From the IMG/VR virus record IMGVR_UViG_3300048593_000017, positions 1-30,439 of that record: a stretch of DNA of 30,439 nucleotides; one strand, given 5' to 3'. This DNA is from a virus. The first letter of the stretch is position 1, and each line of letters opens with the position of its first letter. This document shows positions 1 through 30,439 of the stretch, one piece after another. The notes under the pieces are model-generated. The model did not search any database and was not told the DNA's origin. It saw only the letters and a program-made list of their open reading frames with translations. The position numbers and the translations under genes are program-made.

Positions 1-1
1 T

Positions 2-313
2 GTTTTCCGCACTTACACAATTGCATTAAAGAATGCAAACATGTTCAACTACAGTTTTGATGGTAAGGCTGACAGCGAGTTTGTTCTACCTGGCACATCA
101 ATCAAAGTTGTTGCAGTTGCAGGCTTGAATGGCACTAGCAAGATCTATGCAATGCGTATTTCTAACATGTTCTTAGGAACTGATCTTTTAGATGAGGAAA
201 CTAAGTTCAGCATCAAATATGCTGAGGAGGCTGATCAAATCCGTTTTGTAGCGAAATTCAAAATGGGTGTTCAATTCGCTTTCCCTGAGGAAATCGTTAA
301 GTTCACTGTATAA
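2..313 (+). CDS. Probable major capsid protein, C-terminal part (5' end outside the window)
   Basis: The reading frame is open from base 2, so the methionine at 41 is internal and the true start lies upstream of the window. About 103 residues remain. The end of the protein (GTDLLDEETKF, a basic and aromatic stretch, then GVQFAFPEEIVKF) resembles the C-terminus of major capsid proteins of Bacteroidota phages; this is recognition from memory, not a search. Arginine is written CGT here, and CpG is much commoner than in the following genes, as expected for a very highly expressed gene. A stem-loop follows directly. Another virion protein cannot be ruled out because most of the gene is missing. 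Confidence 0.6.
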   Translation, partial: VFRTYTIALKNANMFNYSFDGKADSEFVLPGTSIKVVAVAGLNGTSKIYAMRISNMFLGTDLLDEETKFSIKYAEEADQIRFVAKFKMGVQFAFPEEIVKFTV

Positions 314-320
314 ATTCTAC

Positions 321-350
321 AGGGCAGGGATTAAGTTTCCTGCCCTATTT
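321..350 (+). terminator. Stem-loop terminator after the capsid gene
   Basis: AGGGCAGG (321-328) pairs perfectly with CCTGCCCT (339-346) over a 10-base loop and is followed by ATTTT. The T tract is short, so termination may be partial. It would separate the capsid message from the next gene. Confidence 0.65.
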
Positions 351-375
351 TAAAAAATAATAAATAATTCATAAC

Positions 376-888
376 ATGGCATGTGCATTAACACAGGGAT
401 ATACTTTAGACTGTAAGGATAGTATAGGTGGCATCAAGGCTGTATGGTTTATTGCAACAGGTGATGTTTCATCTGTAGCAGAGGCATCAGGAGTGGTGAC
501 AGCTATCACTAAGGCATCAGGCAAAGTATTCTATAAATACCAGCTTGTTAAGAATAGCAGTTCATTAACTGAAAACGTAAACGCAAACGTACAAAACGGC
601 ACTGTGTTTTATGCTCAGGAATTAGCAATTGTTCTAAACAAGATGCAAGCAAATACAAGAAACGAAATCTTGTTATTGGCTAAAAACAATTTGATGGCTG
701 TAGTTGAAGATGCAAACGGCAAATACTGGTTACTAGGCAAACAAAATGGCTTAGACCTTTCTGCTGGATCATCTGCAACAGGTACTGCACAGGCAGACCG
801 TAATGGCTACACATTGACATTCAGTGGTGGTGAGAAAGAATTAGCACCTGAGGTGACTAGTGGCATCATTGCTGGATTGACAGCATAG
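376..888 (+). CDS. Conserved virion protein candidate, possibly tail tube or head decoration
   Basis: This gene encodes 170 residues with no signal peptide or membrane segment. It is rich in Gly, Ala, Ser and Thr, and contains the segments LDCKDSIGGIK, NGKYWLLGKQNG and DRNGYTLTFSGGE. I recognise it only as a conserved type of protein in the structural region of Bacteroidota phages. It lies between two terminators, so it can be expressed on its own, and it shares the capsid gene's richer CpG use (for example four CpGs within 571-600). Both facts suggest a product needed in many copies, such as a tail tube or capsid decoration protein. The function is inferred from context. Confidence 0.6.
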   Translation: MACALTQGYTLDCKDSIGGIKAVWFIATGDVSSVAEASGVVTAITKASGKVFYKYQLVKNSSSLTENVNANVQNGTVFYAQELAIVLNKMQANTRNEILLLAKNNLMAVVEDANGKYWLLGKQNGLDLSAGSSATGTAQADRNGYTLTFSGGEKELAPEVTSGIIAGLTA

Positions 889-918
889 GCTTTCGTGGTT
901 TTCAATAGTAGGTAGTCG

Positions 919-950
919 GCCAGTCTCTATTCAGGGGCTGGCTTTTTTTT
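919..950 (+). terminator. Rho-independent terminator
   Basis: GCCAG (919-923) pairs with CTGGC (938-942), followed by eight T (943-950). It closes the 376-888 unit before the portal operon. Confidence 0.75.
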
Positions 951-984
951 GTGGTAAAACATACGGCAAAAGCTATTTAACAAT

Positions 985-1365
985 ATGATATACCTGACAA
1001 AAGGCCAAACCAGTAGTGTGATCCTGACTTTGAAAGAAAAGCAGACATTGGCTGCACCAAATTACTTATTCTATTTTGTTAATAGAACTAGCAATGAGGT
1101 GGTGAAGTTTGTGAAGTTGAACAATACTGACATATCTACACACAAAGACAGATACAATAAATTCAGTATTGATGCCCAGCATGAGATCCACAATAAGCTG
1201 GCAGGTGAATGGACATACTACATCTATGAGCAAACTAGCCAACACAATACAAATCCTGCCCAGGCCACTAGTCTTTTGGAGACTGGCATTTTGAGGCTAG
1301 ATGACAATAGCAATTTTGCATTCACCGAATATGACACAGATAATACATTTAAAGTAAGAGAATGA
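985..1365 (+). CDS. Small structural or head accessory protein, function unknown
   Basis: The product has 126 residues and no membrane segment or catalytic motif. Alternating hydrophobic residues and the segment GEWTYYIYEQ suggest a small beta-sandwich protein. It is first in the operon that continues with the portal: its stop overlaps the portal ATG in an ATGA arrangement, so the two are probably translationally coupled. The leader just before its ATG (AAGCTATTTA) recurs before the tail fibre at 4535. I do not recognise a precise function; a minor head or neck component is likely from position. Confidence 0.55.
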   Translation: MIYLTKGQTSSVILTLKEKQTLAAPNYLFYFVNRTSNEVVKFVKLNNTDISTHKDRYNKFSIDAQHEIHNKLAGEWTYYIYEQTSQHNTNPAQATSLLETGILRLDDNSNFAFTEYDTDNTFKVRE

Positions 1366-3404
1366 AACTAACAGACAATATGTTCATGCTGACCTTTGCT
1401 GAGGCAAAGCAGCCTGAGTTTATGGAAAAAAGAGGTGCAGGCTACATTGAATTTGGTAACAACAATGACTATCCCAGCTACCTTTTAGAAATGTACAATA
1501 AAAGTGCAAAGCACAATGCTATTGTAAGGGGCAAAGTAAACTACATCACTGGCAATGGATGGGCTACCAAAGAGGCTGATCCTGCTGCTGAGATGTTCAT
1601 CAAAAAGGCCAATGACTATGAGAATCTGAATGATTTGACTAGAAAGGTGTCTATTGACATTGAGGTGTTTGGTGGTGCATACCTGGAGGTGATTTGGAGT
1701 GAGGTGGGTGGCATGCTTACAACTGTCAATCATATTGATTATACAAAGATCAGATCTAACAAAGACAATACATCATTTTGGTACAAACAAGACTGGAAAG
1801 ACAGCAGAGAAAAGCCAATTGAAATAGCTGCATTTAACACACAGGTAAGACAGGGCAAACAGATCCTGTACATTAAAGAATACAGACCAGGGATGGACAC
1901 CTATTCACTGCCTGGCTACATGGGTGCATTGAATTACATCCTGAGTGATATTGAGGTTTCAAAGCATGTTTTGGGCAATGCTCAGACAGGGTTTTCTGCC
2001 AGTAAACTTATCACACTACCAAATGGTGAGCCTAGCAATGAGGAAAAGGGCAACATTGAAAAGCGTTTTGAAAAGCGTTTCACTGGGGCTGATGGCAAAA
2101 AGTTCATTTTAAACTTTGTTACTGGTGCAGACAGAAAGGCTATTGTTGAGGATCTAGGCACATCAGATCTGACCAAAGAGGATTTTAGCAGGGTTGATTC
2201 TATGATCCAGCAAAACATCTTTGCAGGTCATCAGATCACTACACCATCATTGTTTGGTATTAGTGAGCCTGGAAAGATGGGAACTAGAACTGAGATGAGG
2301 GATGGATATGAGATCTTCAAATCTACATACTGCAATGACAAACAGCAATTTTTGGAAAGTGTGTTCAACATGTTGGCCAGGTTAAAGGGTGCAACACAGG
2401 ACATGTACATCCAGCCAGTTGAGCCAATTGGCTTTGAGTTCAGTGAAAACATTATTGCCCAGGTAGCACCTAAAGAGTGGATTTTGGAAAAGATGGGCAT
2501 TGATCCTACTAAATACGGCATGCCTACTGATCCAGTAGAACAGCAGCAGGCTGCATCTGTTAATGAGCATTTAAAGGGGCTTAAAGGCAGGGAATGGCAG
2601 AACATGCAAAGAATCATCAGAGAGTTCACAAAGGGCAAAATCACCAGGGATCAGGCCACAGCAATGCTGAAAGGTGGGTATGCTTTATCAGATGATGAGA
2701 TCAATACCTGGTTAGGATCTGATGAGGAAAGTGCAGCATTTAGCAAACAGATGTTCAGTGAGGATGAGGTGTTGAGTGTCTTTGCCCAGTTCGGTGAGGA
2801 TGCAGACAACTATGCTATTTTAAAAAAAAAGAATGTAGGATTTAAGTCTGTTGAACTGTTGGGTGATGATGAGATCATGATGATGGAATTTAAGGATGTG
2901 ATCCTTAGTGAGATTGAAAAAAATGTGATTGATCTAGTTACTAAAGATAAGAGGATCACACCTGAGGTGATTGCTAAGGTCACAAAGACTGATCTAATAA
3001 TCATCAATGAGGTGATGAAAAAACTAGTGGAGAATGGCATACTTAGAGCAAAGGTGGTAGGTGGTACAATTGAAAGGGAGGCAAAAGAGCCACTGAGTAA
3101 ACTGACACCAGGTGAGCCTGCACAGACTACCAGTTTCAAATTGATGTACAAATATGACTGGGACTATAGGAAACTAGCAGCAGAGGGTGCAAAAGCCAAT
3201 TCAGCCACATCTAGGTCATTCTGTAAAAAGTTAATGGCTATGAATAAGCTGTACAGCAGATCAGACATTCAACAGCTTAGTGAGAGACTGGGCTACAGTG
3301 TGTTTGATCGGAGAGGTGGCTGGTGGACAATGCCAAATGGTGAGCATAGCCCTAGCTGTAGACACACATGGGTGAGTAATGTTGTAATAAAAAAAGATAA
3401 ATAA
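1362..3404 (+). CDS. Portal protein fused to a C-terminal minor-head-like domain
   Basis: This is a 680-residue protein. The first 450 or so residues look like an HK97-type portal: an N-terminal clip and stem region with NNNDYPSYLLEMYNKSAKHN, a central part with QNIFAGHQITTPSLFGI, and a helical region near 390-450. Residues 515-560 look like a winged helix. The last 85 residues contain SATSRSFCKKL, LGYSVFDRRGGWW and a CRHTW motif, which resemble the tail end of Mu gpF or SPP1 gp7-like minor head proteins. Typical portals are about 400-520 residues, so this is a long fusion. Codons 489-490 lie in an A9 tract forming A AAA AAG, a possible slippery site. The portal forms the dodecameric DNA gate at the capsid vertex. 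Confidence 0.8.
   Translation: MKLTDNMFMLTFAEAKQPEFMEKRGAGYIEFGNNNDYPSYLLEMYNKSAKHNAIVRGKVNYITGNGWATKEADPAAEMFIKKANDYENLNDLTRKVSIDIEVFGGAYLEVIWSEVGGMLTTVNHIDYTKIRSNKDNTSFWYKQDWKDSREKPIEIAAFNTQVRQGKQILYIKEYRPGMDTYSLPGYMGALNYILSDIEVSKHVLGNAQTGFSASKLITLPNGEPSNEEKGNIEKRFEKRFTGADGKKFILNFVTGADRKAIVEDLGTSDLTKEDFSRVDSMIQQNIFAGHQITTPSLFGISEPGKMGTRTEMRDGYEIFKSTYCNDKQQFLESVFNMLARLKGATQDMYIQPVEPIGFEFSENIIAQVAPKEWILEKMGIDPTKYGMPTDPVEQQQAASVNEHLKGLKGREWQNMQRIIREFTKGKITRDQATAMLKGGYALSDDEINTWLGSDEESAAFSKQMFSEDEVLSVFAQFGEDADNYAILKKKNVGFKSVELLGDDEIMMMEFKDVILSEIEKNVIDLVTKDKRITPEVIAKVTKTDLIIINEVMKKLVENGILRAKVVGGTIEREAKEPLSKLTPGEPAQTTSFKLMYKYDWDYRKLAAEGAKANSATSRSFCKKLMAMNKLYSRSDIQQLSERLGYSVFDRRGGWWTMPNGEHSPSCRHTWVSNVVIKKDK
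2825..2831 (+). other. Possible -1 ribosomal slippage heptamer in the portal gene
   Basis: The heptamer A AAA AAG is in the correct phase for slippage (zero-frame codons AAA AAG) and sits at the 3' end of an A9 run. A -1 shift adds four codons and stops at 2843-2845, giving a product of about 494 residues, the usual portal size, without the C-terminal domains. It is the same heptamer used by E. coli dnaX. No stimulatory structure was established. Confidence 0.35.
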
Positions 3405-3405
3405 G

Positions 3406-3999
3406 ATGAGCAGAAATACACTTTTTATTTCGGTTAAAACTATAAAAGAAAGGACAGGGCTGCATGCCAATGTGGATGAGAAACTGATCCTGCCTGAGAT
3501 CCTGACAGCACAGGACATGTACATATTGCCAGCACTAGGCACAGGCTTGTACAACAGATTGCAGGATGGCATTGATGCAGGAAACCTGACAGCTGATGAA
3601 TCAGATCTGCTAGACACCTACATCACAAACTGCCTGGTGTACTATGTGATGAGTGAACTGCCAATGGGACTGTCATATCAATTCTACAATAAAGGTGTGG
3701 TGAGAAAAAGCAGTGACAATACTGATCTGCCATCTGCACAGGACATGATTGATGTGGCCAACAGGTACAGATCCAGGGCTGAATTTTACGGCCAAAGACT
3801 GGTGAAGTATTTGAAACAGGTAGCAACTACTGTGAAATTTCCTTTATACAACAGCCCAGGAATAGGTGTAGACATCATCAAACCTGAGAGAGATTCATAC
3901 ACAACTACTATTTGGTTGGGTGATGACTACTGCTGTAAAGATCCAAAGAACTTAGACAACTGGCTAAAAGACACAAACCAATGCTGTGATGGCGAATAA
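3406..3999 (+). CDS. Head-tail connector (adaptor) protein, DUF6712-like
   Basis: The 197-residue protein begins one base after the portal stop. Its mostly helical N-terminal half (ISVKTIKERTGLHANVDEK, then ILTAQDMYILPALG and LYNRLQDGI) resembles gp6-like head-completion adaptors of the DUF6712 type; this is recalled by pattern. A conserved tyrosine-rich central region (NCLVYYVMSELP, YQFYNKGVVRK) fits the family. Such proteins form a ring beneath the portal. The position straight after the portal supports the call. The C-terminus is Cys- and Asp-rich. Confidence 0.65.
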   Translation: MSRNTLFISVKTIKERTGLHANVDEKLILPEILTAQDMYILPALGTGLYNRLQDGIDAGNLTADESDLLDTYITNCLVYYVMSELPMGLSYQFYNKGVVRKSSDNTDLPSAQDMIDVANRYRSRAEFYGQRLVKYLKQVATTVKFPLYNSPGIGVDIIKPERDSYTTTIWLGDDYCCKDPKNLDNWLKDTNQCCDGE

Positions 4000-4058
4000 A
4001 ACATATTCAAAAAAGAATCAGGAGAAACTAAAAATCTACCTGGAGAAAAAATTTAAAA

Positions 4059-4520: not shown

Positions 4521-4534
4521 AGCTATTTATCAGT

Positions 4535-7075
4535 ATGGCAAATAAGAAAATATCAGAATTAGAATCCAGGGCATCCCTTAGTCTCAGTGACCTGATGGCT
4601 GTGGGTGATCCCAGCACTGGATATTTATATAAGACTACCATCAGTGATCTGAAAACTTTGACAGGTGCTGGGGTGGTTTCTTTCAATGGCAGATTTGGCA
4701 CAGTCAATCCTGCTGAGGGTGACTATACATTGACACAACTGGGTGATGTGATTATCACTAGCCCTAGCAATGGCCAGGTGCTAAAGTACAACGGATCAAA
4801 CTGGGTGAATGCAACAGAGGTGTCAGAGGCTGATACTTTGGACACAGTTACAGGCAGAGGCAATACAACTGCCAACAGCATCACAGTAGGATCTGTGACA
4901 GCTGCTGGCCTTTCAAACTTACTAGGACAGATTAGGACATTTGTAACTACAGGCAACATCTACATGGGTGCAAACCCAGGATCTGCAACTGATGCAGGAT
5001 TCAAATTGGATGTATTAGGCACAACCAGGTTGAACGGCAATACTACTGTCACAGGTGTATTGACAGGATCGGACACAATCAGATCTACAAATGGCACTGT
5101 GACTGTATCAATAAGCTATGGATCAACTGCTGGTATTATAGGCACTACATCAAACCACAGTTTGGAAATAAGAACAAACAATACATACAGAGTTGGTGTA
5201 AGCACAGCAGGTGTGGTGAATATTGCAAATTTGATTGGCACAGGATCTAGGATTGTTGTTGCTGATTCAGCAGGCAATCTGAGTGCAACAACTGCAATAG
5301 GTGACTTTGTTACTATAAACACTACACAAACCATCACAGGTGCAAAGACATTCAATAATTTAACCACATTCAATCAAAACATTGTTGGTGGAATCATCAA
5401 ACTAAGTCAGGGAGTATTGCTGTCAAAATCAGCAGCTGTTGGAACTGATGCTGGTTACTTATCATTGATTGCAACATCAGCAACTGGGTTGAATTATATC
5501 AACATTGCAGACGGTGATGCACCATCAAACACACAAAGATTTGCCATCCCAAACACTGGCACTTACACTTACACATTGCCAGGTGCATCAGGCACACTAG
5601 CATTGACATCAGACATCCCATCTGTGGCAGGTGTTTACTTACCACTATCAGGTGGCACATTGACTGGTGCGTTGAATGGCACTAGTGCAAGTTTCAGTTC
5701 TAATTTTTATGTAAGCGGAGGAACAAATACAAATGTTGGAAATGGCATTCATGCTTATTATGAATCTAACTATGCACAAATACAATTGAATGGTGACAGT
5801 GCAGCAGGTAGTTTGATTGATTTTTCAACAAGTGGAACTGACTATAAAGGGCGAATTGTTTACAGAAATGCTACTAATCAATTTGAATTTAATACAAACG
5901 GGAATGGCACTCCTGTTTTGACATTAGCATCAGGTGGTGCTGCAACATTTAGCAGCACTGTGACCACAGGCGGTGATGTAACAATCCCCAATGGTAGCTA
6001 CTACTATGCAAAAAGACAATCAGGTGGAGCATCTATAAATGTTTTAGGATTTGCATCAGGCAGTGATACACTAATAATAAAAGGTGGTACAAGTGGATCA
6101 GGTGTGTCAATACAGTTTCAAGACACAGGTGGAAATATAGCAGCATTTAACAATGGAAATTTTGGGATAAATACTACAAACCCAAATGGTAGATTACACG
6201 TAGAAACATCTTCAGGATCTACTTTATTAAGATTGTCAGCATCAGCCGTAAATACAAAATATCTATATACACTTACAGGAGGTGCAGATGATGCTTTTAC
6301 ATTATCAAGAGACCATACAAGTGCTGGAGGTTTAGATATAATGACCTGGACTTATTCTGGAAAAGTTGGAATCGGTACTACAAGCCCGACTGAACTATTC
6401 CATTTATATACAGCATTTGCAGGATCATCAGGTGTTGGTACTATAATGAAATTTGAATCAGCAGGTGCAGGTGGTGACCAGGCATGGATTGGAGTGAACA
6501 AAGGCACTGGGAATGGTTTGACATTTTCAGTAGAAAATAGAGATATAATTTTCAGAACTGGTGCAACTACTGCATTTGGTGGCAGCGAGAAACTAAGAAT
6601 AACATCAGGTGGTGATATTATAGTTAATTATTCAGTTGCAAATGATTCAGGAAGTAGAGTAATCAATATACAAGGATCTCGTTCTGCTACCAATGTTGAT
6701 ATTTCTAGTTTATATCTTACTCAAATTTGGAATGGTACTGCATATCCTGTAATACTTGCAGCACAGCAAGATTTAAGTTATGGTAATGCATCAGGAATTT
6801 TCGTACTTAAAACATCATACTGGAATGGTAGTTCTGTTTCAACAGGTGAGAGATTAAGGGTTACAGCTGAGGGGAATTTATTAGTAAATACAACGAGTAA
6901 TTCAGGATTTAAAGTTGATGTGAATGGCACAGGTAGATTTACTGGTGATGTAAAAGTTAAGACCTTAGAAGTGACAAACGTGGGTACAGATGCAACATCA
7001 AGTGGTGTATCTACTTACATGAGAATAACAGTAAACGGACAAAATTATTTGATACCATTGCATGGTACACCTTAA
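4535..7075 (+). CDS. Tail fibre or appendage protein with beta-repeat shaft
   Basis: The 846-residue protein starts with ISELESRASLSLSDLMAVGD, an N-terminus common in Bacteroidota phage fibres, followed by an attachment-like segment (SFNGRFGTVNPAEGDYTLTQLGDV). The rest is Gly, Ser, Thr and Asn rich and built of degenerate repeats such as VGIGTTSPTELFHLYT, FGINTTNPNGRLHVET and FKVDVNGTGRFTGDV, typical of trimeric fibre shafts. The end (YMRITVNGQNYLIPL) resembles fibre termini. No S74 chaperone domain is visible. From about 5690 the DNA has more CpG and more A+T than the first part, which may mark an exchanged host-range segment. Confidence 0.8.
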   Translation: MANKKISELESRASLSLSDLMAVGDPSTGYLYKTTISDLKTLTGAGVVSFNGRFGTVNPAEGDYTLTQLGDVIITSPSNGQVLKYNGSNWVNATEVSEADTLDTVTGRGNTTANSITVGSVTAAGLSNLLGQIRTFVTTGNIYMGANPGSATDAGFKLDVLGTTRLNGNTTVTGVLTGSDTIRSTNGTVTVSISYGSTAGIIGTTSNHSLEIRTNNTYRVGVSTAGVVNIANLIGTGSRIVVADSAGNLSATTAIGDFVTINTTQTITGAKTFNNLTTFNQNIVGGIIKLSQGVLLSKSAAVGTDAGYLSLIATSATGLNYINIADGDAPSNTQRFAIPNTGTYTYTLPGASGTLALTSDIPSVAGVYLPLSGGTLTGALNGTSASFSSNFYVSGGTNTNVGNGIHAYYESNYAQIQLNGDSAAGSLIDFSTSGTDYKGRIVYRNATNQFEFNTNGNGTPVLTLASGGAATFSSTVTTGGDVTIPNGSYYYAKRQSGGASINVLGFASGSDTLIIKGGTSGSGVSIQFQDTGGNIAAFNNGNFGINTTNPNGRLHVETSSGSTLLRLSASAVNTKYLYTLTGGADDAFTLSRDHTSAGGLDIMTWTYSGKVGIGTTSPTELFHLYTAFAGSSGVGTIMKFESAGAGGDQAWIGVNKGTGNGLTFSVENRDIIFRTGATTAFGGSEKLRITSGGDIIVNYSVANDSGSRVINIQGSRSATNVDISSLYLTQIWNGTAYPVILAAQQDLSYGNASGIFVLKTSYWNGSSVSTGERLRVTAEGNLLVNTTSNSGFKVDVNGTGRFTGDVKVKTLEVTNVGTDATSSGVSTYMRITVNGQNYLIPLHGTP

Positions 7076-7085
7076 AAACAATAAA

Positions 7086-7406: not shown

Positions 7407-7447
7407 CAAACCAGGTGTGTGATGATGCACACCACAAATAAGACGGA

Positions 7448-7699: not shown

Positions 7700-7742
7700 T
7701 AAAAAATAGCTGAAAAGCTATATATTAAAAACACGAAAAGCA

Positions 7743-8159: not shown

Positions 8160-8161
8160 AC

Positions 8162-9570: not shown

Positions 9571-10566
9571 ATGAAACACCCAAAGAAAGATACTGCCCAG
9601 CAGTATCATGACCGCTTTGCAGACACACCAACCCTGACACTAGCCAGGAAAATCTACAAAGAAAACAATCTACTGTACAAAGACATAGAGGATGCTAGAC
9701 AGTCATTGAGATATGTCAGAGGGCAGGTCGGTGATTACAAACGCAAATTCACTGGACACAAAAAAGAGGATTTAAAATACAATTACAATCCGTATAAATT
9801 ACCTGAAAGCAGTGCAGAGGAAAGAAAGCCATTTGTCCTGCCAACAGCCTGCAACAATATTCTGCTGATCTCAGATCTGCACATTCCCTATCATGACATT
9901 GCAGCCACTACAGCTGCATTCCAGTATGGCCAGGAAAACAATGTGAACACCATTTTCATCAATGGTGATCTGATGGACTTTTGTCAGATTAGTAGATTTG
10001 AAAAGAATCCTGCAAAGAGGTCAGTCAAATATGAACTGGACACAGCAAAGGTGATGCTGGATGCTATGAGAGAGGCATTTCCTACACAACAGATCTATTT
10101 CCTAAAAGGCAACCATGACATCAGACTGGAATTGTATCTGAGGGTGAAAGCACCTGAGATCCTGGACATGGATGAGTTTAAGATGGAAAGCCTGCTGAAT
10201 TTCAACAAATACAAGATCACCAGCATTGAGGACAATGTCCTGGTGAAAGCTGGTCACCTATCAATCACACATGGACACCATGTGATGAGAGGCTTTTTTG
10301 CACCAGTGAACAGTGCCAGGGGTTTATATACCAAAGCAAAGCAATCAACAATCATTGGGCATGTACACAAAGTGAGTGAGCATACAGAGACAAACATGGA
10401 TGGTGACATGACAACCACATGGTCTACAGGATGCCTGTGTGAACTGAAACCTGACTACAGCCCACTGGTGAGCAACTACAGTCATGGCTTTGCACACATC
10501 AAAGTGCATGCAGACAAATCCTATTCAGTAAGCAACAAAAGGATCTACAATGGCCAAATCCTGTAA
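9571..10566 (+). CDS. Calcineurin-like metallophosphoesterase
   Basis: The protein has 331 residues. After a roughly 90-residue helical basic N-terminal region of unknown role come all metal-binding motifs of the superfamily: SDLHIP (Asp102, His104), NGDLMD (Asp133), GNHD (180-183), HGHH (234-237) and GHVH (263-266). It would be a two-metal phosphoesterase or nuclease-like enzyme in the cytoplasm; the substrate cannot be told from sequence. It overlaps the following DUF3310 gene by 17 bases. Confidence 0.85.
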   Translation: MKHPKKDTAQQYHDRFADTPTLTLARKIYKENNLLYKDIEDARQSLRYVRGQVGDYKRKFTGHKKEDLKYNYNPYKLPESSAEERKPFVLPTACNNILLISDLHIPYHDIAATTAAFQYGQENNVNTIFINGDLMDFCQISRFEKNPAKRSVKYELDTAKVMLDAMREAFPTQQIYFLKGNHDIRLELYLRVKAPEILDMDEFKMESLLNFNKYKITSIEDNVLVKAGHLSITHGHHVMRGFFAPVNSARGLYTKAKQSTIIGHVHKVSEHTETNMDGDMTTTWSTGCLCELKPDYSPLVSNYSHGFAHIKVHADKSYSVSNKRIYNGQIL

Positions 10567-12504: not shown

Positions 12505-12564
12505 TCAGATGTTTGTCTGTACGTTTTACCCATGCATGTAAGATATTGAATGTCATAGACATAG

Positions 12565-12582
12565 CAAATCCCACCAGCTCCA
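12565..12582 (+). other. Possible attP core resembling a tRNA 3' end
   Basis: CAAATCCCACCAGCTCCA reads like the T-loop end, the 3' side of the T stem (CCCAC), a seven-base acceptor strand (CAGCTCC) and the discriminator base of a tRNA. There is no matching 5' portion, so it is not a tRNA gene. Phages that integrate into tRNA genes carry such fragments beside the integrase. Confidence 0.4.
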
Positions 12583-12600
12583 CAGAAAGCAAAAACTAAG

Positions 12601-12624
12601 CCACTGAATTTCAGTGGTTTTTTT
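12601..12624 (+). terminator. Rho-independent terminator
   Basis: CCACTGA (12601-12607) pairs perfectly with TCAGTGG (12611-12617) over three bases and is followed by seven T (12618-12624). It separates the upstream operon from the integrase. Confidence 0.8.
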
Positions 12625-12718
12625 ATGTCCAGTCTACATTCCAGCCACTGGACTGCATTTGCAGGCTATGCTATTTTTATCTATTTTTATCCTTTATTAG
12701 TTCATTTGTTTGTCCTTT

Positions 12719-12743: not shown

Positions 12744-13823
12744 ATGCAAAAGTTCACCATCAGGCCAGTGATCCTGAAACATAAGATCAATGAGAAAGGC
12801 ATGGCATCAATCAAAATTGCTGTCACTGTTGATAGGAAAGTCACATACATAAACACATCACACAGGGTACACAAAGACCAGTGGGATGATGAAAATAAAG
12901 CTGTTTACAGGCATGAAAATGCAAAGCTGATCAATGTGTCAATCAGGAGAAAGATTGCCGAAATTGAAAGGGATCTGATCAACAACAGCATCCAGGGTGT
13001 GCAGCTGTCAAAGAGGATTATCAAAGGCCAGGTGACAGTGGCCAGGTCATTCAAACAATATGCAAAAGAGGTCAAATGGGATCAGACAAAATTGAACAGG
13101 ATCATAGATTTTGGGGGTGAGCAATTATTGATCAGTGATGTGACAGTTGAATGGCTGAGAAAGTTTGAAACCTGGTGCAGAAAAAAGCCACTAGCACCCA
13201 ACACCATCCACACCACAATCAAATATGTCAGCAGGATCATCACACAGGCCAGGAAAGAAAAGATCATCCATGATGATCCATTTGATCAATACATCAAACC
13301 AAAGTATCAGCAGACAGATAGGCTGTACCTGGTGGATCATGAATTGAAATTGATGGTGGATCTGCTGGACAAACCAATGAGCAAATCAATGCATGACACA
13401 CTGTGCTATTTTCTGCTGGCATGCTACACAGGCCTGAGACATTCTGACTGGGGCAGATTTAGCATGAGCAATGTTGAGGATGGACATATAAAGCTGAGGG
13501 CATTGAAAAACAAAACACATGTGGTGCTGCCCATAGGCAAAACACTTTCAAAGATTCTTATACATATTGAGAATACTTTAAAACCTTTGAGCAATCAAAA
13601 ATGCAATGTGATGCTGAAAAGCCTGGCATCAATGGCTGGCATTGATAAAGAGATCAGTACACATAGTGGCAGACATTCATTTGGCTACATGTGTGCAGCC
13701 AATGGCCTGCCTGAAAGCACAACAGCAGCACTATTGGGAGTGAATGCCAACACTGTTAAAGTTTACTATCACCTAACAGGTGAAAAGATTAAACACCAGG
13801 CAAATGCTTTGAAATATGTTTAA
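12744..13823 (+). CDS. int: Tyrosine recombinase (integrase)
   Basis: The 359-residue protein has an N-terminal arm-type DNA-binding domain (about 1-90), a SAM-like core-binding domain (about 100-185) and a catalytic domain. Catalytic residues visible are Arg232 (TGLRHSD), Lys257 or Lys255 (LKNKT), His307 and Arg310 (HSGRH), and the nucleophile Tyr342 or Tyr341 (VYYHLTG). The usual second His or Trp, expected where the sequence reads LLGVN, is Val333. It would carry out site-specific integration between attP and attB. Its ATG directly follows tandem repeats that could control it. The opposing repressor gene ends about 80 bases downstream. Confidence 0.9.
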   Translation: MQKFTIRPVILKHKINEKGMASIKIAVTVDRKVTYINTSHRVHKDQWDDENKAVYRHENAKLINVSIRRKIAEIERDLINNSIQGVQLSKRIIKGQVTVARSFKQYAKEVKWDQTKLNRIIDFGGEQLLISDVTVEWLRKFETWCRKKPLAPNTIHTTIKYVSRIITQARKEKIIHDDPFDQYIKPKYQQTDRLYLVDHELKLMVDLLDKPMSKSMHDTLCYFLLACYTGLRHSDWGRFSMSNVEDGHIKLRALKNKTHVVLPIGKTLSKILIHIENTLKPLSNQKCNVMLKSLASMAGIDKEISTHSGRHSFGYMCAANGLPESTTAALLGVNANTVKVYYHLTGEKIKHQANALKYV

Positions 13824-13905: not shown

Positions 13906-14325
13906 CTATCCCTGTTTCAATTCGTGTAAGATCTTTGCTAGATTATGCTGCAAAAGTTTTTCAGCCATCAGTTGAACATCCATCACAGAACGGTTTGAAG
14001 CAGCAGCCAAAGTCTCAATCATCATCTGCCGATTAGTTTGGATCTCAGCTTTAATCTGCAATATTGATTCAGTGAGTATTTGAAGGGCATCAGGTTTTTC
14101 AATAGTTTCCTGTTTGCCACCAGTTGCAAAGTCTTTCAGTTTTATGGCAAAGGCCTTCTCAAAATTCTTTTCAAATTCTGAGGAGGCTTTTGCATTTCCA
14201 CTAAGGTAGCTGCTGACAGTGGCCTTATTATATCCCATTTTGTCTGCAATGTCTTTGTCCTTTGTGATGATTCCCTTTCCATATAAATACTGCACAGCTT
14301 TATTCAAAAGTTCATTCTGATGCAT
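13906..14325 (-). CDS. Phage repressor (helix-turn-helix, CI-like role)
   Basis: The 139-residue protein is the only recognised gene on the minus strand. Residues 10-60 form an XRE-type helix-turn-helix (ITKDKDIADKMGYNKATVSS, then YLSGNAKAS). The rest is helical (DALQILTESILQIKAEIQ) and may dimerise. There is no LexA-type peptidase domain, so induction would not be by RecA-driven self-cleavage. It is divergent from the early regulator at 14444, and two palindromes lie in the shared control region, the usual lysogeny-switch layout. Confidence 0.75.
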   Translation of the reverse strand: MHQNELLNKAVQYLYGKGIITKDKDIADKMGYNKATVSSYLSGNAKASSEFEKNFEKAFAIKLKDFATGGKQETIEKPDALQILTESILQIKAEIQTNRQMMIETLAAASNRSVMDVQLMAEKLLQHNLAKILHELKQG

Positions 14326-21005: not shown

Positions 21006-21107
21006 ATGATCACCACAATCTACTGGATTTGCATTGCAGCTGTCATGACAGCATTTGCACTGGCTGGGATCTATGACTTACTGGTGCAAATCAAAAAGCT
21101 AAAATGA
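21006..21107 (+). CDS. 33-residue membrane peptide
   Basis: The small frame begins with ATG 21006 and its stop overlaps the glycosyltransferase ATG (ATGA). One membrane helix (IYWICIAAVMTAFALAGIY) is followed by a basic end (QIKKLK). The tight coupling to the next gene supports that it is translated. Confidence 0.5.
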   Translation: MITTIYWICIAAVMTAFALAGIYDLLVQIKKLK

Positions 21108-22111
21108 GAATATTAGTCATCACACAACAGAACAGTGGTGTGGGCTATCACAGACTGATGATGCCCATCTACTACATGAAAAAGGAATTTGCATTCTTTA
21201 CAGACACCATCAATGATGAGATCCTTTCTGAGCAATATGACATTGTGGTTGTCAATAGGTACATCCCAACCTGTCACATAGATGACCTAAAAGCCTACAG
21301 GGAAAAGTATGGTTTCAAACTGATCCTGGACATTGATGACTATTGGCATTTAGATCCCTGGCACATCCTGTATGGCCAGTATGATGCAGAGCCTATCATT
21401 GAACATATTAAGGCAGCTGACCTGGTTACCTGCACAAACATGGGATTGAGGTATCACATCAGCAAATACAATGAGAAAGTGCATGTAGTACCAAATGCCC
21501 TACCATACGGCAAAGATCAGTTCACTGATGTACACACACCAGGTGACAGGATAAGGGTGGTATATACAGGATCAATCACCCATCAGAAAGATGTGGCACT
21601 ATTGGGCAACCCATTCAAAAGGGTGCTGTCAGATAAGCACCTGGTCAATCAGCTGCATTTCACATTGTGTGGCTATGATCCAGCAAATGATTTTAGCAAG
21701 ATAGTATGGCACAGAATGATCAATGATTTTACTGTGGCACTACAAATGCCAGGGGCAGTCAAAAAGGCTTTGCCCATCACAGAGTACATGAATTTCTACA
21801 ATGAGGCTGATGTGTCTATTGTGCCACTGGTTGAAAGCAAGTTCAACAGCATGAAATCAAACCTGAAAGTATTAGAGGCAGCCACCAAAAAGATCCCTGT
21901 CATTGTCAGCAATGTTGATCCATACAAAGGATGCCCATACACAGTGAAGGTGAGCAAACAAACTGACTGGTATAAGGCAATCAAAAAAGTGGCCACAGAT
22001 GCTATTTATAGGAAGGAAATAGGTGAGGCAAACCATGAGTGGTGCAATCAATATTTCCATTTGGATAAGATTAATGAACTGAGACACCAGCTGTACAGCA
22101 GTCTCATTTAA
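21104..22111 (+). CDS. Glycosyltransferase, GT-B fold (GT4-like)
   Basis: The 335-residue protein has an N-terminal Rossmann domain (MRILVITQQNSGVGYHRLMM), a DIDDYWHL segment, a linker (VHVVPNALPYG), and a C-terminal domain with RVVYTGS and the nucleotide-sugar region ADVSIVPLVESKFNSMKSN followed by LKVLEA. These fit GT4-like enzymes that use an NDP-sugar. The acceptor could be modified phage DNA, virion protein or host surface glycan. It lies between DNA-metabolism and packaging genes, beside an HNH nuclease and a methyltransferase. Confidence 0.75.
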   Translation: MRILVITQQNSGVGYHRLMMPIYYMKKEFAFFTDTINDEILSEQYDIVVVNRYIPTCHIDDLKAYREKYGFKLILDIDDYWHLDPWHILYGQYDAEPIIEHIKAADLVTCTNMGLRYHISKYNEKVHVVPNALPYGKDQFTDVHTPGDRIRVVYTGSITHQKDVALLGNPFKRVLSDKHLVNQLHFTLCGYDPANDFSKIVWHRMINDFTVALQMPGAVKKALPITEYMNFYNEADVSIVPLVESKFNSMKSNLKVLEAATKKIPVIVSNVDPYKGCPYTVKVSKQTDWYKAIKKVATDAIYRKEIGEANHEWCNQYFHLDKINELRHQLYSSLI

Positions 22112-22117
22112 GATATT

Positions 22118-22181: not shown

Positions 22182-22437
22182 GAAACACACACAGATTTAT
22201 TTGCAGGGGATGGGGTATAAAAACAGTGACTTTATCCCCTGTGAAGTGTGTGGCAGGCAGGCAGTAGACATTCACCACATCAAAGCCAGGGGCATGGGTG
22301 GATCAAAGGATAAAGATGTGATTGAGAATCTGATGGCAGTATGCAGATCCTGTCACTTAGAATACGGAGACAAAAAACAGTGGGTGGACTTTTTAATTGA
22401 TAAGCACAAAGAGAAACTGAATGATCACAGATGCTGA
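22177..22437 (+). CDS. HNH endonuclease near the terminase genes
   Basis: The 86-residue protein has Cys22 and Cys25 (CEVC), the catalytic DIHHIKARGMGGS (31-43), Asn51 and CRSCH (56-60), a clear HNH zinc fold. HNH genes beside terminase genes are common and in some phages take part in packaging-site cleavage. It overlaps the methyltransferase gene by 17 bases. A 9-base inverted repeat may limit its translation from long transcripts. Confidence 0.85.
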   Translation: MRKHTQIYLQGMGYKNSDFIPCEVCGRQAVDIHHIKARGMGGSKDKDVIENLMAVCRSCHLEYGDKKQWVDFLIDKHKEKLNDHRC

Positions 22438-22948
22438 ATTTTTACGGATTGAATTAGAGATGGGCATCAGCCTGGACAATCCTGCATTTTTACAACTAGG
22501 GGCAGCTACAGCAACACAGCTGTCAGATCTGCCAGTAAGGACAGTGCTGGACTTTGGGGCAGGCACTGGGGTTTATTCTGATGCATTCCACAAAGCAGGC
22601 TATGATGTAAAGGCATGTGAAAAGTTCAAATCACATATTGAATACATGAAAATCAGAGTGCCACACATTGAGATCCTGGGCAAACCAATCACCACAGATC
22701 TACTGGTATTTATTGAAACAGCAGAACACATGACTGATAAGGAGTTGGATGCACTATTTAAACAAATACAGCCATCATACATCCTATTCAGTTCAACATC
22801 ACAGCGGACAGAAAATGATGAGGCCTGGGGGCATATTAATGTTAAAGAGCAATCTGAATGGGATGCATATTTTTTAAACAAAGGATATAAGCTGATCAAA
22901 CCATTGGCCTATCCTACAAACTGGTCAAAGTTATATGGCAAAGGTTAG
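22421..22948 (+). CDS. Class I SAM-dependent methyltransferase
   Basis: The 175-residue protein shows motif I (VLDFGAGTGVYS, about 42-53) and the acidic residue after strand 2 (ACEKF, Glu67). The motif IV region reads LLVFIETAEHM and the following strand ILFSSTS, more like small-molecule or protein methyltransferases of the Methyltransf_11/23 type than DNA methyltransferases, which have DPPY or PC. The substrate is unknown; it may act with the upstream glycosyltransferase. Confidence 0.65.
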   Translation: MITDAEFLRIELEMGISLDNPAFLQLGAATATQLSDLPVRTVLDFGAGTGVYSDAFHKAGYDVKACEKFKSHIEYMKIRVPHIEILGKPITTDLLVFIETAEHMTDKELDALFKQIQPSYILFSSTSQRTENDEAWGHINVKEQSEWDAYFLNKGYKLIKPLAYPTNWSKLYGKG

Positions 22949-23622: not shown

Positions 23623-23623
23623 C

Positions 23624-24115
23624 ATGGCAAAGGCAATAAAGAAACCTACTAAGAAAGCTGCACCTAAAAAGGCAGCAAAGCCAGTTGGCAGGCCAAAGAA
23701 TATTGAGACACCTGAGATCATGTGGGATCTGTTTCAGCAATATAAGAAAGACACCAAAGCAAATCCATTCATTGTCAAAGACTGGGTGGGTGGAATGGGC
23801 AAACAGGTGCTGAGAGAGAAAGAGAAACCACTGACACTGGAGGGATTCAATGTGTGGTGTTTTGAACAGGGGATTGCATCATGGCTGCATGATTATTTCA
23901 TGAATAAAGATGGCAGGTACAAAGAATTTGCCAATATCTGCTCTATAATAAAGGAACAAATCAGGCAGGATCAGGTGGCTGGTGGCATGGCTGGGATCTA
24001 CAATCCGAGCATCACACAGAGACTGAATGGACTGGTAGATAAGATCCAGGAGGATGGCAGCAAAGAGGTGACCATCAAAGTGAAGTATGAAAAGAAAGAA
24101 ACACCAAAAGATTAA
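23624..24115 (+). CDS. terS: Terminase small subunit
   Basis: The 163-residue protein starts with a Lys/Ala/Pro-rich basic tail (KAIKKPTKKAAPKKAAKP), then a PVGRPKNIETPE segment and helices resembling phage DNA-packaging proteins (IMWDLFQQYKKDTKANPF, DYFMNKDGRYKEF, IRQDQVAGGMAGIYNPSITQ). The YNPSITQRLNGL segment is typical of the family. It recognises phage DNA for packaging. Its stop overlaps the TerL start by one base. Confidence 0.75.
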   Translation: MAKAIKKPTKKAAPKKAAKPVGRPKNIETPEIMWDLFQQYKKDTKANPFIVKDWVGGMGKQVLREKEKPLTLEGFNVWCFEQGIASWLHDYFMNKDGRYKEFANICSIIKEQIRQDQVAGGMAGIYNPSITQRLNGLVDKIQEDGSKEVTIKVKYEKKETPKD

Positions 24116-25287
24116 TGCTAGAAAAGACAGTACACCTGAATGAACTGCATGTCAATCAGCAGAAAGTTGTGGATGGCCATAAAAGGTTTTCTGTGCTATC
24201 ATGTGGCAGACGGTGGGGCAAATCAGCCCTGGCCATCAACCTGCTATCTGAGACAGCCATTGCAGGCAAATTGGCTGGCTATTTCACACCTACATACAAA
24301 CTACTGGATGGCACATTCAATGAGTGCCTGCATGCCCTAGAGCCTATCATATCACGCAAAAATGACCATCAATTCATTGAACTGATCACAGGTGGCAAAA
24401 TAGAGTTTTGGTCACTAGAGAATGAACTGGCAGGTAGATCCAGGAAATACCACAGGAATATCATTGATGAGGCTGCATTCGTTAAAAACCTATGGAATAG
24501 ATGGACTGAATCCATCAGGCCTACACTGACTGACTTTAAGGGTGATGCATTCTTTTTATCTACACCTAAAGGCAAAAATGACTTTCATAAGATTTGGCAG
24601 AGAGGCAAATCAGGTGATGCCGGTTGGGTAAGCTGGCAGATGTCTACCTATGACAATCCCTATATTGATCCAACAGAAATAGATGAGGCTAGACTGGATC
24701 TGCCTGAGTTGGCATTTAGTCAGGAATACATGGCTGAGTTCAATGAGAATGTGGCAAATCCATTTGGTGCTATGTTCATCCAGCAGTGTACCTATCCCAT
24801 GAGCAATCAGCCAGCTGTATGCTATGGCATTGACCTGGCAAAGTCATATGACTACACAGTGATCATAGGCCTGGATGAGAATGGCACAGTGTGTCACTTT
24901 GATAGGTTTCAGGATGACTGGCGTACCACTAAGCAAAGAATCACAGCACTGCCCAGGTCACCGATTCTGATGGACAGCACTGGTGTGGGTGATCCTATCT
25001 TTGAGGATCTACAGGCAGCAGGCCTGGATGTCACAGGCTTTAAGTTCAGCAGCACATCTAAACAGCAACTGATGACAGGGCTACAGACAGCCATCCAACA
25101 GAGAAAGATTGCTTTTCCTGATGGTGCAATCACAGCTGAACTGAACATCTTTGAATATGAGTTCACCAACAGTGGTGTGAAGTATGCAGCACCTAGTGGA
25201 TTCCATGATGACTGTGTGATGGCATTGGCACTGGCCTGGAATAACCACAACACAAAGAGAGGCACAGGCAGATATTCATTTGCTTAA
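24115..25287 (+). CDS. terL: Terminase large subunit
   Basis: The 390-residue protein has an ATPase domain with Walker A GRRWGKS (31-37), Walker B IIDEA (116-120) and a coupling motif FLSTPKG. Its RNase H-like nuclease domain has Asp240 (YGIDLAKSYD), Asp287 (LMDSTGVGD) and Asp365/366 (FHDDCVMALALA). All key residues are present, so it appears complete though shorter than many large terminases. It powers DNA packaging and cuts the concatemer at the portal. It starts within the last base of terS. Confidence 0.93.
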   Translation: MLEKTVHLNELHVNQQKVVDGHKRFSVLSCGRRWGKSALAINLLSETAIAGKLAGYFTPTYKLLDGTFNECLHALEPIISRKNDHQFIELITGGKIEFWSLENELAGRSRKYHRNIIDEAAFVKNLWNRWTESIRPTLTDFKGDAFFLSTPKGKNDFHKIWQRGKSGDAGWVSWQMSTYDNPYIDPTEIDEARLDLPELAFSQEYMAEFNENVANPFGAMFIQQCTYPMSNQPAVCYGIDLAKSYDYTVIIGLDENGTVCHFDRFQDDWRTTKQRITALPRSPILMDSTGVGDPIFEDLQAAGLDVTGFKFSSTSKQQLMTGLQTAIQQRKIAFPDGAITAELNIFEYEFTNSGVKYAAPSGFHDDCVMALALAWNNHNTKRGTGRYSFA

Positions 25288-27026: not shown

Positions 27027-28201
27027 TGGCAATAACAATCAATAGCACACCTGAGGCATATCCATCAGCACATGATGATCTGTACTTTGTGGTGACATCT
27101 AATAACTATGCACAGGCAGGTTTCAAATATGTGTTTGACATCTTAATCAGTGGCACACTGGTGACCAGGATCAAACTATTTCCTGATCCTGCAACTACCA
27201 AAGGCATCTTTAATGCTGGCAGTGTGGTCAGAAGTTACCTAAATGGATATTTCAAACCCAATGCCACAACCACTGCATTTGCTTACACAGGGAATGATCT
27301 GTACATCAACTATGAGATCAGATTTGGTGAGGACTATGGTGGCACTACATACACCAACCTGGCATCAGGTAACTATAGAGCATTCAACTTTGTCAATCCA
27401 GTATTCAGAGACTGGACTACATCATACTACCAACCAAAGATCAACACCTGGCTGACAGGCAGGGATGTGACCACAGCTGAGGTAGGACTGACAGAGAGGC
27501 TGTATGCTGGTTTCATGAACACAGCTGCAACCACTACCAACCTGACATTGACAGTACAAAAGTATTTACCAGGTGGGGCAGCAGACGGATCATCATCAAC
27601 AGGCAACAGTATTGCATGCAGTGCATTTGTATTGTTTGACCTGTCACCTGCTGCCATCAATGCATACCTGGGCAGTTCACTGATCAATGCAGCCACATAC
27701 CAGTATGGTGTGAAAGTAAACTATGGAGGCAATCAGTCACCTGAGTTTAAGATCAAGTTAGCTTGCAACCCTAGATGGACACCAGTGACATTGCATTTCT
27801 TAAATAAGCTGGGAGGCTATGACAGCTTTGCATTTAGATTAGTGAATAAGAGATCTGCATCTGTTGAGAAAAAAAGCTATCAGCAACTAGACTGGCAGTA
27901 TAATTCAGGATCTATGACCAGGTATGATTCATTCAAAAGGATCAATGCTGGTGTCAATACGTTTGCAGTTAATGAGATGGTGAGTTTTAAACTATCAAGT
28001 GACTATATCAATGCCACTGACTATTTATGGCTAAAGGATCTTATCACCAGCCCTGAGGTCTACTATGAGGATGCTGGCTACTACTATCCTGTTGGAATTA
28101 AGAACACCAGCTGGGAGGAAAAGAATAGGATTGCTGACAAGATGTTCAACTTTGATTTAGAGGTTGAATTTGCTCAAAAAATGAATAGTCAATACAGATG
28201 A
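27026..28201 (+). CDS. Tail or baseplate structural protein
   Basis: The 391-residue protein is rich in Thr, Asn, Tyr and Ser with beta-strand patterns throughout (LYFVVTSNNYAQAG, DLYINYEIRFGEDYGG, WLTGRDVTTAEVGLTERLYA). I recall this type from tail regions of Bacteroidota phages, often just before the 730-residue protein below. It lacks membrane or enzyme motifs. The stop of the previous gene and this ATG share bases. Confidence 0.6.
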   Translation: MAITINSTPEAYPSAHDDLYFVVTSNNYAQAGFKYVFDILISGTLVTRIKLFPDPATTKGIFNAGSVVRSYLNGYFKPNATTTAFAYTGNDLYINYEIRFGEDYGGTTYTNLASGNYRAFNFVNPVFRDWTTSYYQPKINTWLTGRDVTTAEVGLTERLYAGFMNTAATTTNLTLTVQKYLPGGAADGSSSTGNSIACSAFVLFDLSPAAINAYLGSSLINAATYQYGVKVNYGGNQSPEFKIKLACNPRWTPVTLHFLNKLGGYDSFAFRLVNKRSASVEKKSYQQLDWQYNSGSMTRYDSFKRINAGVNTFAVNEMVSFKLSSDYINATDYLWLKDLITSPEVYYEDAGYYYPVGIKNTSWEEKNRIADKMFNFDLEVEFAQKMNSQYR

Positions 28202-30390
28202 TCAAAACAGAAATATATATTGAAAATCAGAGGCTGGATCTTACTAAAGACCTATCAACTGAGTTCACATACAACATTGATGATGTTAAGGATTTTTCAT
28301 CACGCAATACCAACTTTTCTAAGACTATTGTCTTACCTGGGAATGCTGTAAACAATCAGGTGTTTGGACACATCTTTGAGTTTGGATCATCAAATGATTA
28401 TGATCCTGCACTGATCAATGTGGGCTACAATTTCAACCCATCAAAGGCAGCCAACTGTGTTGTGTTTGTAGATAAGGTGCAGATCTTTAAAGGCATTCTG
28501 AGGATGCTGGAAATCATCCTGGACAATGGGACAATAGAATATGAGTGTGCTGTGTTCGGTGAATTGGGTGGCTTTATAGCTGCACTAGGAAATGAAAAGC
28601 TGGAAAACTTAGATTTTTCCCAGTATGATCATACCTGGAATATGACCAACATCACAGGATCATGGGACAATGTGCAGGGATCAGGTTACTACTATCCATT
28701 GATGGACTATGGCCTGGTGAGTTCAGCAAACAAACATGACTGGAATGTGCAGGCATTCAGACCTGCATTGTATGTGAGAGAGTACATGGATAAGATCATC
28801 AGCGGATCAGGCTACACCTATGAATCTAGCTTTTTCAATTCAGCTGTGTTCAGACGGTTGATCATCCCACAAAACGGAAAGATCCTAATCAAAAACACTA
28901 CAAAGCTGGTGCAGGCTGACAGGAATAATGCATACACTGTAATGAACTTACAGAACACCAGCACTGAAAATTTGAAATTTGACAGCATATCACTGGCACA
29001 GTTCACCCAAACAAATGATGAATCATTTACATATACAGGCACAGCGGTGGCAAACACAGTCATCAATCTGAATCTGTATGGTGTTTTGAATTTAGGATTT
29101 TCAGGATTTGGCACAGCTTACACCACATTAAGATTTGACCTGTACAAAGGGACAACAGTGCTGGCCACAAAGTCATTCAACAATACAGTAGGATCAGCAC
29201 CATCACTGGCTATTCCATACCTATGGACTGACACACTAAATGCAGTGATCAACCCAGGTGAAACGCTAAGGATTGAAGTCAATTACACAATGTCATTTGA
29301 TCCTAGCTTGCAATTTTTATTTGGCAATGTTGAATCATACGGTGGCACATTCTTAAAGATTGACAATGCAACTAGCATCACAGTGCCTGCTGAGTATGGT
29401 GACACCATCAGCATCAATGACAACATCCCAAAGGGAATATTTCAAAAGGACTTTTTTGCATCCATCATCAAGATGTTCAACATGTATGTGGTTGAAGATC
29501 CTATTAAGTCAAAGCACCTGATCATCAAACCATACATTGAGTTCTATGATTTTGATGGGCTTTCTTTACTAGCCATTGATGATTTTAATGGCCTATTAAA
29601 AATAAATGACCTGGACAATCTATTGCTAGAGGATGGGGTGATCAGATACATTGACTGGACATATAAGGTGGACAGATCAAAGCCTATCAGGTTGAAACCA
29701 ATGAGTGAACTGAATGGTAGATATTTTGAGTTCAAATACAAAAATGATACAGACTACTACAATGATCAGTATCAAAAGAAATACAGCCAGGCCTATGGCA
29801 CACGAATAGAGGACAGTGGGTATGACTTTGCAAAGGAAAAGCAGACAGCTGAAATCATCTTTGCACCTACACCACTGGTGGGCTATAATGGTGAGGATAA
29901 AGTGTTCAGCACAATATTCAAACTGAACAATGGGGTAGAGGATGTGACTGAGCATGTGATCAGGATCTTACAGGCCAAAAAGATCACAGGTGTCACCAGC
30001 TATGCAGTTAAGAATGGTGGGGCAACATTGCAGAATTTAACTACTTATGGATATGCTGGACATCTTGATGATCCTGATGCACCACAGGCAGATTTGAACT
30101 TTGGCACACCTGGTGAACTGTACTTTGAACTGGTTACACCATACCCAACAGCAAATCTATTCAATGGATATTGGAGTGAGTACATAGCGGAGATCACAGA
30201 TAAGGACAGCAAACTACTATCAGCATTTGTCTACCTGAAAGCAAAAGACATATACAGCCTGGACTTTGCAAGACTGATCTATATAGATGGGGCTTTGTGG
30301 AGGTTGAACAGTGTGCAGGACTACAATCCAATGGACACTGGCATCACAAAGGCTGAATTTTTAAAAGTAATTGAGACAACATACGAATAA
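28198..30390 (+). CDS. Large tail or baseplate protein
   Basis: The 730-residue protein starts with IYIENQRLDLTKDLSTEFTY, then NTNFSKTIVLPGNAVNN, a recognisable pattern from Bacteroidota phage tail proteins. The rest is Tyr and Asn rich beta structure with a region near 410-480 rich in hydrophobic and acidic residues (FFASIIKMFNMYVVEDPIKS). It precedes the tape measure. Tail-tip or baseplate roles fit size and place. No enzymatic motif is visible. Confidence 0.6.
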   Translation: MIKTEIYIENQRLDLTKDLSTEFTYNIDDVKDFSSRNTNFSKTIVLPGNAVNNQVFGHIFEFGSSNDYDPALINVGYNFNPSKAANCVVFVDKVQIFKGILRMLEIILDNGTIEYECAVFGELGGFIAALGNEKLENLDFSQYDHTWNMTNITGSWDNVQGSGYYYPLMDYGLVSSANKHDWNVQAFRPALYVREYMDKIISGSGYTYESSFFNSAVFRRLIIPQNGKILIKNTTKLVQADRNNAYTVMNLQNTSTENLKFDSISLAQFTQTNDESFTYTGTAVANTVINLNLYGVLNLGFSGFGTAYTTLRFDLYKGTTVLATKSFNNTVGSAPSLAIPYLWTDTLNAVINPGETLRIEVNYTMSFDPSLQFLFGNVESYGGTFLKIDNATSITVPAEYGDTISINDNIPKGIFQKDFFASIIKMFNMYVVEDPIKSKHLIIKPYIEFYDFDGLSLLAIDDFNGLLKINDLDNLLLEDGVIRYIDWTYKVDRSKPIRLKPMSELNGRYFEFKYKNDTDYYNDQYQKKYSQAYGTRIEDSGYDFAKEKQTAEIIFAPTPLVGYNGEDKVFSTIFKLNNGVEDVTEHVIRILQAKKITGVTSYAVKNGGATLQNLTTYGYAGHLDDPDAPQADLNFGTPGELYFELVTPYPTANLFNGYWSEYIAEITDKDSKLLSAFVYLKAKDIYSLDFARLIYIDGALWRLNSVQDYNPMDTGITKAEFLKVIETTYE

Positions 30391-30439
30391 TGGCAAATGA
30401 AAAAGTAGGTGTTGATATTGTAGTCAATACAGGTGATTC
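30390..30439 (+). CDS. Start of a probable tape measure protein (truncated by the window)
   Basis: The ATG shares a base with the previous stop and 16 codons are visible, reading MANEKVGVDIVVNTGD. This opening is typical of tape measure proteins, which set tail length. Position after the chaperone and tail genes supports it, but the rest lies outside the window. Confidence 0.5.
   Translation, partial: MANEKVGVDIVVNTGD

Follow-up and report, generated by a model that had tools for sequence, protein, structure and literature searches.

The CpG dinucleotide has been nearly eliminated from the virus record IMGVR_UViG_3300048593_000017 (G000; 30,439 bases, analysed here at its full length and hereinafter referred to as the window), and the conclusion that this depletion is maintained by selection on the dinucleotide, at approximately 2Ns 3.2–3.8 per site, is well supported by comparison with close relatives. 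Restriction by the host appears to be the most likely selecting agent, and deamination of methylated cytosine is rejected as the main cause.

CpG depletion within genes, across codon junctions and between genes

The window contains 147 CpG, compared to ~1,208 expected from the base counts (rho, i.e., the observed/expected ratio, o/e, of 0.12), with o/e of 0.11 in coding and 0.20 in intergenic DNA; the ratios for other dinucleotides are 1.19 for GpC, ~1.56–1.59 for TpG, ~1.56–1.58 for CpA and 0.66 for TpA. The initial annotation of this sequence had reported CpG far below the compositional expectation across the window, and the counts it gave, two CpGs in 2401–3000 and one in 27661–28200, are exact; it overlooked, however, the first kilobase, where o/e is 0.45. 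Among the 43 genes, 40 have o/e <0.36, the remaining three being g1 (0.57), g10 (0.39) and g27 (0.38). With phase-specific marginals, o/e is 0.19 for codon positions 1-2, 0.06 for positions 2-3 and 0.12 for positions 3-1, i.e., across the codon junction. A synonymous-codon shuffle that leaves both protein and pooled codon usage unchanged yields 567 ± 16 junction CpGs against the 64 observed (z −31).

The codon preferences described in the initial annotation are reproduced by the complete counts. Arginine is encoded by AGA or AGG in 271 of 306 cases, and very few CGN and NCG codons remain. Codons ending in a pyrimidine end in C in 68% of the cases before A and in 5% before G, where GAT, ATT and AAT dominate (Asp, GAT 154 and GAC 5; Ile, ATT 124 and ATC 2; Asn, AAT 162 and AAC 18). 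Given that the depletion extends to codon junctions and to intergenic DNA, its cause has to be other than codon choice.

It had also been proposed that GATC is correspondingly frequent. This tetranucleotide is truly enriched (232 sites in the window; 2.1x the zero-order and 1.27x the second-order Markov expectation; 213 versus 126 in the codon shuffle), yet the enrichment is no simple consequence of the junction rule. In L019/L020, a CpG-poor relative lineage, there is a GATC deficit (0.6x).

Selection versus mutation

To separate selection from mutation, genome pairs ~5% apart were compared at synonymous third positions, those followed by G being set against those followed by any other base. 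Relative to matched changes, the fixation rate is 0.12x for T>C substitutions that create CpG and 3.0x for C>T substitutions that remove it; A>G changes that create NCG occur at 0.0039 versus 0.05–0.08 elsewhere, such that NCA to NCG is ~13–20 times rarer than comparable A>G changes. Every route into CpG is suppressed, also for A>C and G>C changes where the next base is G. For changes polarised with an outgroup, the values are 0.018 versus 0.185 for gain and 0.355 versus 0.155 for loss.

A stationary two-state fit gives 0.128x gain and 3.14x loss, and a pure-selection model with S = 3.20 (2Ns) predicts 0.136x and 3.33x; the fit is robust to the removal of CpG-richer genes (those retained having o/e <0.2 and <0.12), with S of 3.7–3.8. 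A mutation-only model at the same CpG frequency predicts 265 synonymous differences, of which 66 are seen (p 3e-51), and in the most depleted genes 115 are predicted and 35 seen. Furthermore, 80% of the synonymous junction CpGs are common to genomes 5% apart. Strongly suppressed CpG gain combined with only mildly raised loss indicates selection rather than methylation decay. Together with the junction and intergenic depletion, this quantitative fit sustains the initial proposal that selection acts on the dinucleotide, beyond codons.

Sequence context of the remaining CpGs

All NCGN contexts are depleted, the non-palindromic ones to 0.05–0.31 and the palindromes to 0.00–0.08; in the window, CCGG occurs once, and GCGC, TCGA and CGCG do not occur at all. 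Given the bases that flank the remaining CpGs, 41 palindromic sites would be expected in the window, 47 in G005 and 40 in G006; the observed numbers are 10, 7 and 2, respectively. At codon junctions, TCGA is found at 1 of 562 sites, whereas TCGC, TCGG and TCGT, which arise from the same codons, reach 3.5–15%. Both junction CpG and the CpG palindromes are, then, rarer than base composition and codon usage would predict.

Single contexts are spared in some relatives. CCGG stands at 1.7x in G010 and L249, with every other CpG context at <=0.26, and at 2.8–3.5x in L037/L039, with CCGC at 0–0.07; in L040, L043, L057 and L068, CCGC is at 0.74–0.86, and CCGG and GCGC are at 0. Sparing or enrichment of CCGG alone among the CpG contexts is a property of L019, L020 and L249 and of L037 and L039. 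A phage-encoded methylase was discarded as the cause of CCGG sparing, as none of the three methylase families PF00145, PF01555 and PF02086 has a match in G010 (half genome) or G016. The CCGG sites of G010 correspond mostly to CCTG or CAGG in clade A (the clade of the window); the notion that these represent a direct mutation path from CCGG was rejected because, at 74% identity, the correspondence reflects codon preference.

The phage family as a whole is heavily shaped by site avoidance. GATC, CATG and GGCC are common in clade A and missing from many relatives, and in L254–L269 and L037–L081, GATC, CTAG, GGCC, GCGC, TCGA or CATG are at 0 in 10–20 kb, in subclade-specific sets. The missing palindromes could be read as a record of the restriction repertoires of hosts, and the pattern looks as though the set of enzymes encountered had changed.

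The extra loss of palindromes and the sparing of one context at a time suggest restriction that reads sequence, as opposed to decay of methylated sites, codon preference or sensing of RNA. Recognition sites of restriction systems would account for such one-context exceptions, for which neither mutation nor an RNA-level process offers a reason.

CpG loss as a switching trait of the phage family

Depletion of CpG is a clade-wide trait that switches within the phage family. In the relatives with 89–99% terminase identity that form the window clade, CpG o/e is 0.06–0.23 throughout, the depletion spans the entire length of the full records of clade members, and the intergenic o/e in clade A (0.12–0.27) is close to the coding one (0.11–0.15). 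In the terminase tree (a quick search, with moderate support of 92–93), this clade adjoins a high-CpG sister clade at 66–71% terminase identity (L025–L031; o/e 0.77–1.01), in which GATC is avoided. A second, separate shift is found elsewhere in the tree, between L043/L057/L068 (0.24–0.29) and L046/L047 (0.89–0.92), at 81–84% DNA identity; about a quarter or fewer of the CpGs are retained in this case while most of the GpCs are retained. Such near-identical phage backbones with CpG of ~0.9 and ~0.25 amount to a natural experiment.

A C5 cytosine methylase gene (L111 13570–14496, in the record of L009) is present in G004, the member of the clade in which CpG is highest (0.22); this methylase might possibly serve self-protection.

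Restriction as the probable selecting agent

On balance, we favor the hypothesis that CpG in the double-stranded DNA of this lineage is under strong purifying selection exerted by host restriction that reads CpG-containing sites. Host CpG restriction had been named as a potential cause in the initial annotation, and it is the best remaining one in view of the context-specific sparing and the extra palindrome loss. The selecting agent would be a single enzyme of very relaxed CpG specificity or else several Type II enzymes whose sites include CpG-centred and asymmetric ones. Under this scenario, every added CpG would make cutting of the incoming phage DNA prior to its modification more likely; palindromic CpG four-mers, as the most dangerous ones, would be essentially gone, and other CpGs, being cheaper, would persist at about a tenth to a quarter of the expectation. 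In hosts that do not attack, or that modify, one context, that context would stay common, as could be the case for CCGG in L019/L249 and L037/L039 and for CCGC in L040/L043/L057/L068.

Several points weigh against this hypothesis. No restriction enzyme is known to read bare CpG, so that the hypothesis requires multiple enzymes or one with relaxed specificity. Neither the host nor its restriction enzymes were found in the host-genome searches described below, and the substitution fit assumes stationarity and employs pairs that share one genome (G008), which limits the exact numbers more than the direction. Finally, the phage seems to be temperate, and site avoidance is usually weaker in temperate phages than in virulent ones (PMC6286503).

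Alternative explanations

In a related scenario, a host CpG methylase marks the phage DNA, Type IV enzymes of neighbouring hosts cut the methylated CpG, and phages that move between hosts shed the dinucleotide. This would explain both the two-base specificity and the selection at the DNA level, and CpG-specific bacterial methylases do exist (M.SssI, M.MpeI; PMC5944983). Taken alone, however, it leaves the extra palindrome loss and the CCGG/CCGC sparing unexplained; we consider it unlikely. Of the methylation that had been suggested along with restriction, methylation followed by modification-dependent cutting is the possible part, and decay of 5-methylcytosine (5mC) as the main cause fails the flux test.

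Mimicry of a CpG-poor host, with which the phage would share the mutation and repair regime or codon use, appears improbable. Some Chitinophagaceae contigs are indeed moderately CpG-poor, at 0.26–0.45 (G062, G324, G375 and one 3.3-kb contig of G152), but no fetched stretch is as depleted as the phage, with ~680 Chitinophagales genomes screened by a rough proxy (the pattern CGNNCGNNCG versus a reversed control), and the sister phages, which probably have related hosts, have CpG near 1. The pattern is absent only in G050 (0 versus 277) and G324 (0 versus 35), whose fetched contigs have CpG of 0.73–0.79 and 0.31, respectively; the sampled contigs of the lowest-scoring genomes, where sequence was fetched, fall at 0.26–0.87. 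G050, G064, G375, G324 and G126 were accordingly dropped as CpG-poor host candidates (fetched contigs at 0.31–0.87). The true host possibly lies outside this sample.

No host was identified by searching for the terminase in GTDB contigs (the best match, 56%, is in Chitinophagaceae UBA8137) or in ~300 Chitinophagaceae genomes, for matches to window DNA, including spacer-like ones, in 396 genomes (the short matches being shared terminator hairpins), or for the candidate attachment site in 396 genomes and all viral contigs. In contigs of the Chitinophagaceae G062, G152 and G324 (L195–L202), many palindromes are strongly avoided, with GCGC, CGCG, CCGG and GATC near 0, and G152 has five C5 methylase genes.

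Mutational decay, in which CpG methylated by the host turns into TpG/CpA through deamination of 5mC to T, is highly improbable. It is consistent with TpG and CpA raised to ~1.56, with a gain of NCA codons in clade A that nearly equals the loss of NCG, and with CpG loss elevated 2–4 times. It fails on the C/T differences at CpG/TpG junctions, where about a quarter of the required number is seen, on the tenfold suppression of CpG gain, on the sharing of junction CpGs between diverged genomes and on the absence of a C5 methylase from the window and G003. In the second shift, transversions and transitions that remove CpG are elevated to the same extent; this comparison is confounded by codon position and, with a high-high control pair being similar, was dropped as proof.

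Selection at the level of RNA or translation, i.e., sensing of CpG in transcripts or avoidance of CGN and NCG codons, is hardly credible: most of the genome is transcribed and these codons are nearly gone, but the junction depletion is independent of codon use, intergenic DNA is nearly as depleted, and it is not obvious what the palindrome effect would mean for RNA.

The phage and its gene content

Judging by its genes (portal, terminase, metallo-phosphoesterase, integrase, repressor-like, ERF, HNH, VRR-NUC and glycosyltransferase), the window is a fragment of what appears to be a temperate tailed phage of Bacteroidota. Among host genomes, the best matches come from prophages of Chitinophagaceae (terminase identity 52–56%), and the nearest isolates by the portal protein are the Nonlabens phages P12024S/L (25% identity). 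The following features are relevant.

1–30439, the whole phage fragment: CpG o/e 0.12 (coding 0.11, intergenic 0.20)
1–1000, the least depleted stretch: 17 of the 147 CpGs, o/e 0.45
1362–3404, + strand, portal protein gene: 5 CpG versus 83 expected
4535–7075, + strand, long open reading frame, probably tail-fibre-like, as judged from position and repeats: 19 CpG versus 98 expected
9571–10566, + strand, metallo-phosphoesterase gene: 4 CpG versus 45 expected
12550–12630, + strand, candidate phage attachment site (attP): transfer-messenger RNA/tRNA-like 3' end AATCCCACCAGCTCCACA followed by a terminator hairpin, immediately upstream of the integrase
12744–13823, + strand, tyrosine integrase: 1 CpG versus 46 expected
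13906–14325, − strand, repressor-like regulator, which points to a temperate lifestyle
21104–22111, + strand, glycosyltransferase: 1 CpG versus 44 expected
22421–22948, + strand, class I methyltransferase (Methyltransf_23, under the curated cut-off), of no DNA-methylase family
24115–25287, + strand, terminase large subunit, the query for collecting relatives: 6 CpG versus 59 expected

The weaker depletion of the first kilobase perhaps reflects recent acquisition or recombination. The candidate attP is conserved in G003 and G012. No DNA methylase families were found among the proteins of the window or in G003.

Parallels and known systems

Near-complete elimination of CpG arose more than once in phages of Bacteroidota. 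In 30–50 kb stretches of Bacteroides phages of the crAss-like Asinivirinae (L281, MH675552 1–50000; L283, MT074136; L288, MT074138; L289; L290), the depletion is more extreme than in the window, with o/e of 0.01 in DAC15, 0.02 in DAC17, 0.03 in crAss001, 0.04 in cr126_1 and 0.08 in cr116_1. These phages differ from the window in having unrelated ~100-kb genomes and an excess of AG/CT instead of TG/CA, which implies that CpG was replaced along other routes. Most of the CpGs that crAss001 has kept lie within its first 10 kb, the part of the genome with its tRNA genes. Other phages of Bacteroidota are less depleted (cr111_1, 0.21; cr128_1, 0.29; phi14:2, 0.50), as are crAss002 (0.63) and cr4_1 (0.54), which are outside Asinivirinae, and B124-14 has o/e of 1.18. 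The Nonlabens phages P12024S/L (Inhavirus) resemble the window phage in infecting Bacteroidota, in size (~35 kb), in the presence of ERF and VRR-NUC and in a similar gene order, but have normal CpG (0.93).

By analogy with restriction-site avoidance, selection in the window lineage strips short words from a double-stranded DNA phage, palindromic four-mers most of all, and relatives differ in what they lose. In the survey of such avoidance, the vast majority of cases are at orthodox Type II sites and the avoidance is strongest in non-temperate phages (Rusinov et al., 2018; PMC6286503), whereas the window lineage loses CpG in every context, including the non-palindromic ones, despite having an integrase. 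Genomes subject to 5mC deamination (vertebrates and others) share with the window very low CpG and raised TpG and CpA; the window lineage differs in the tenfold-suppressed CpG gain and a loss raised only ~threefold. Vertebrate RNA viruses, in which CpG is suppressed and is sensed by ZAP (PMC10191365), are likewise under selection against the dinucleotide across codon boundaries, but the depletion in the window is in double-stranded DNA, includes intergenic regions and has a restriction-like dependence on flanks.

Implications

Loss of particular restriction sites by phages is already known; in the window lineage, a whole dinucleotide has been nearly lost. We found no earlier description of CpG depletion in phages of Bacteroidota in the open-access literature searched, most subscription papers being outside that search. 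Where close relatives are available, the flux test employed here can be applied to any dinucleotide bias to distinguish selection from decay through methylation. The cause can be tested in the laboratory with parallels that are in culture, namely DAC15 and DAC17, which grow on Bacteroides thetaiotaomicron, and crAss001, which grows on B. intestinalis. More tentatively, and with considerable doubt on our part, an anti-phage activity of Bacteroidota might read bare CpG, plain or methylated, and might have been escaped independently by the freshwater clade of the window, the second lineage of the same family and the gut Asinivirinae. Whole-dinucleotide loss in every context is far more demanding than the loss of a single site, and it bears on the breadth of the defences that these phages have met.

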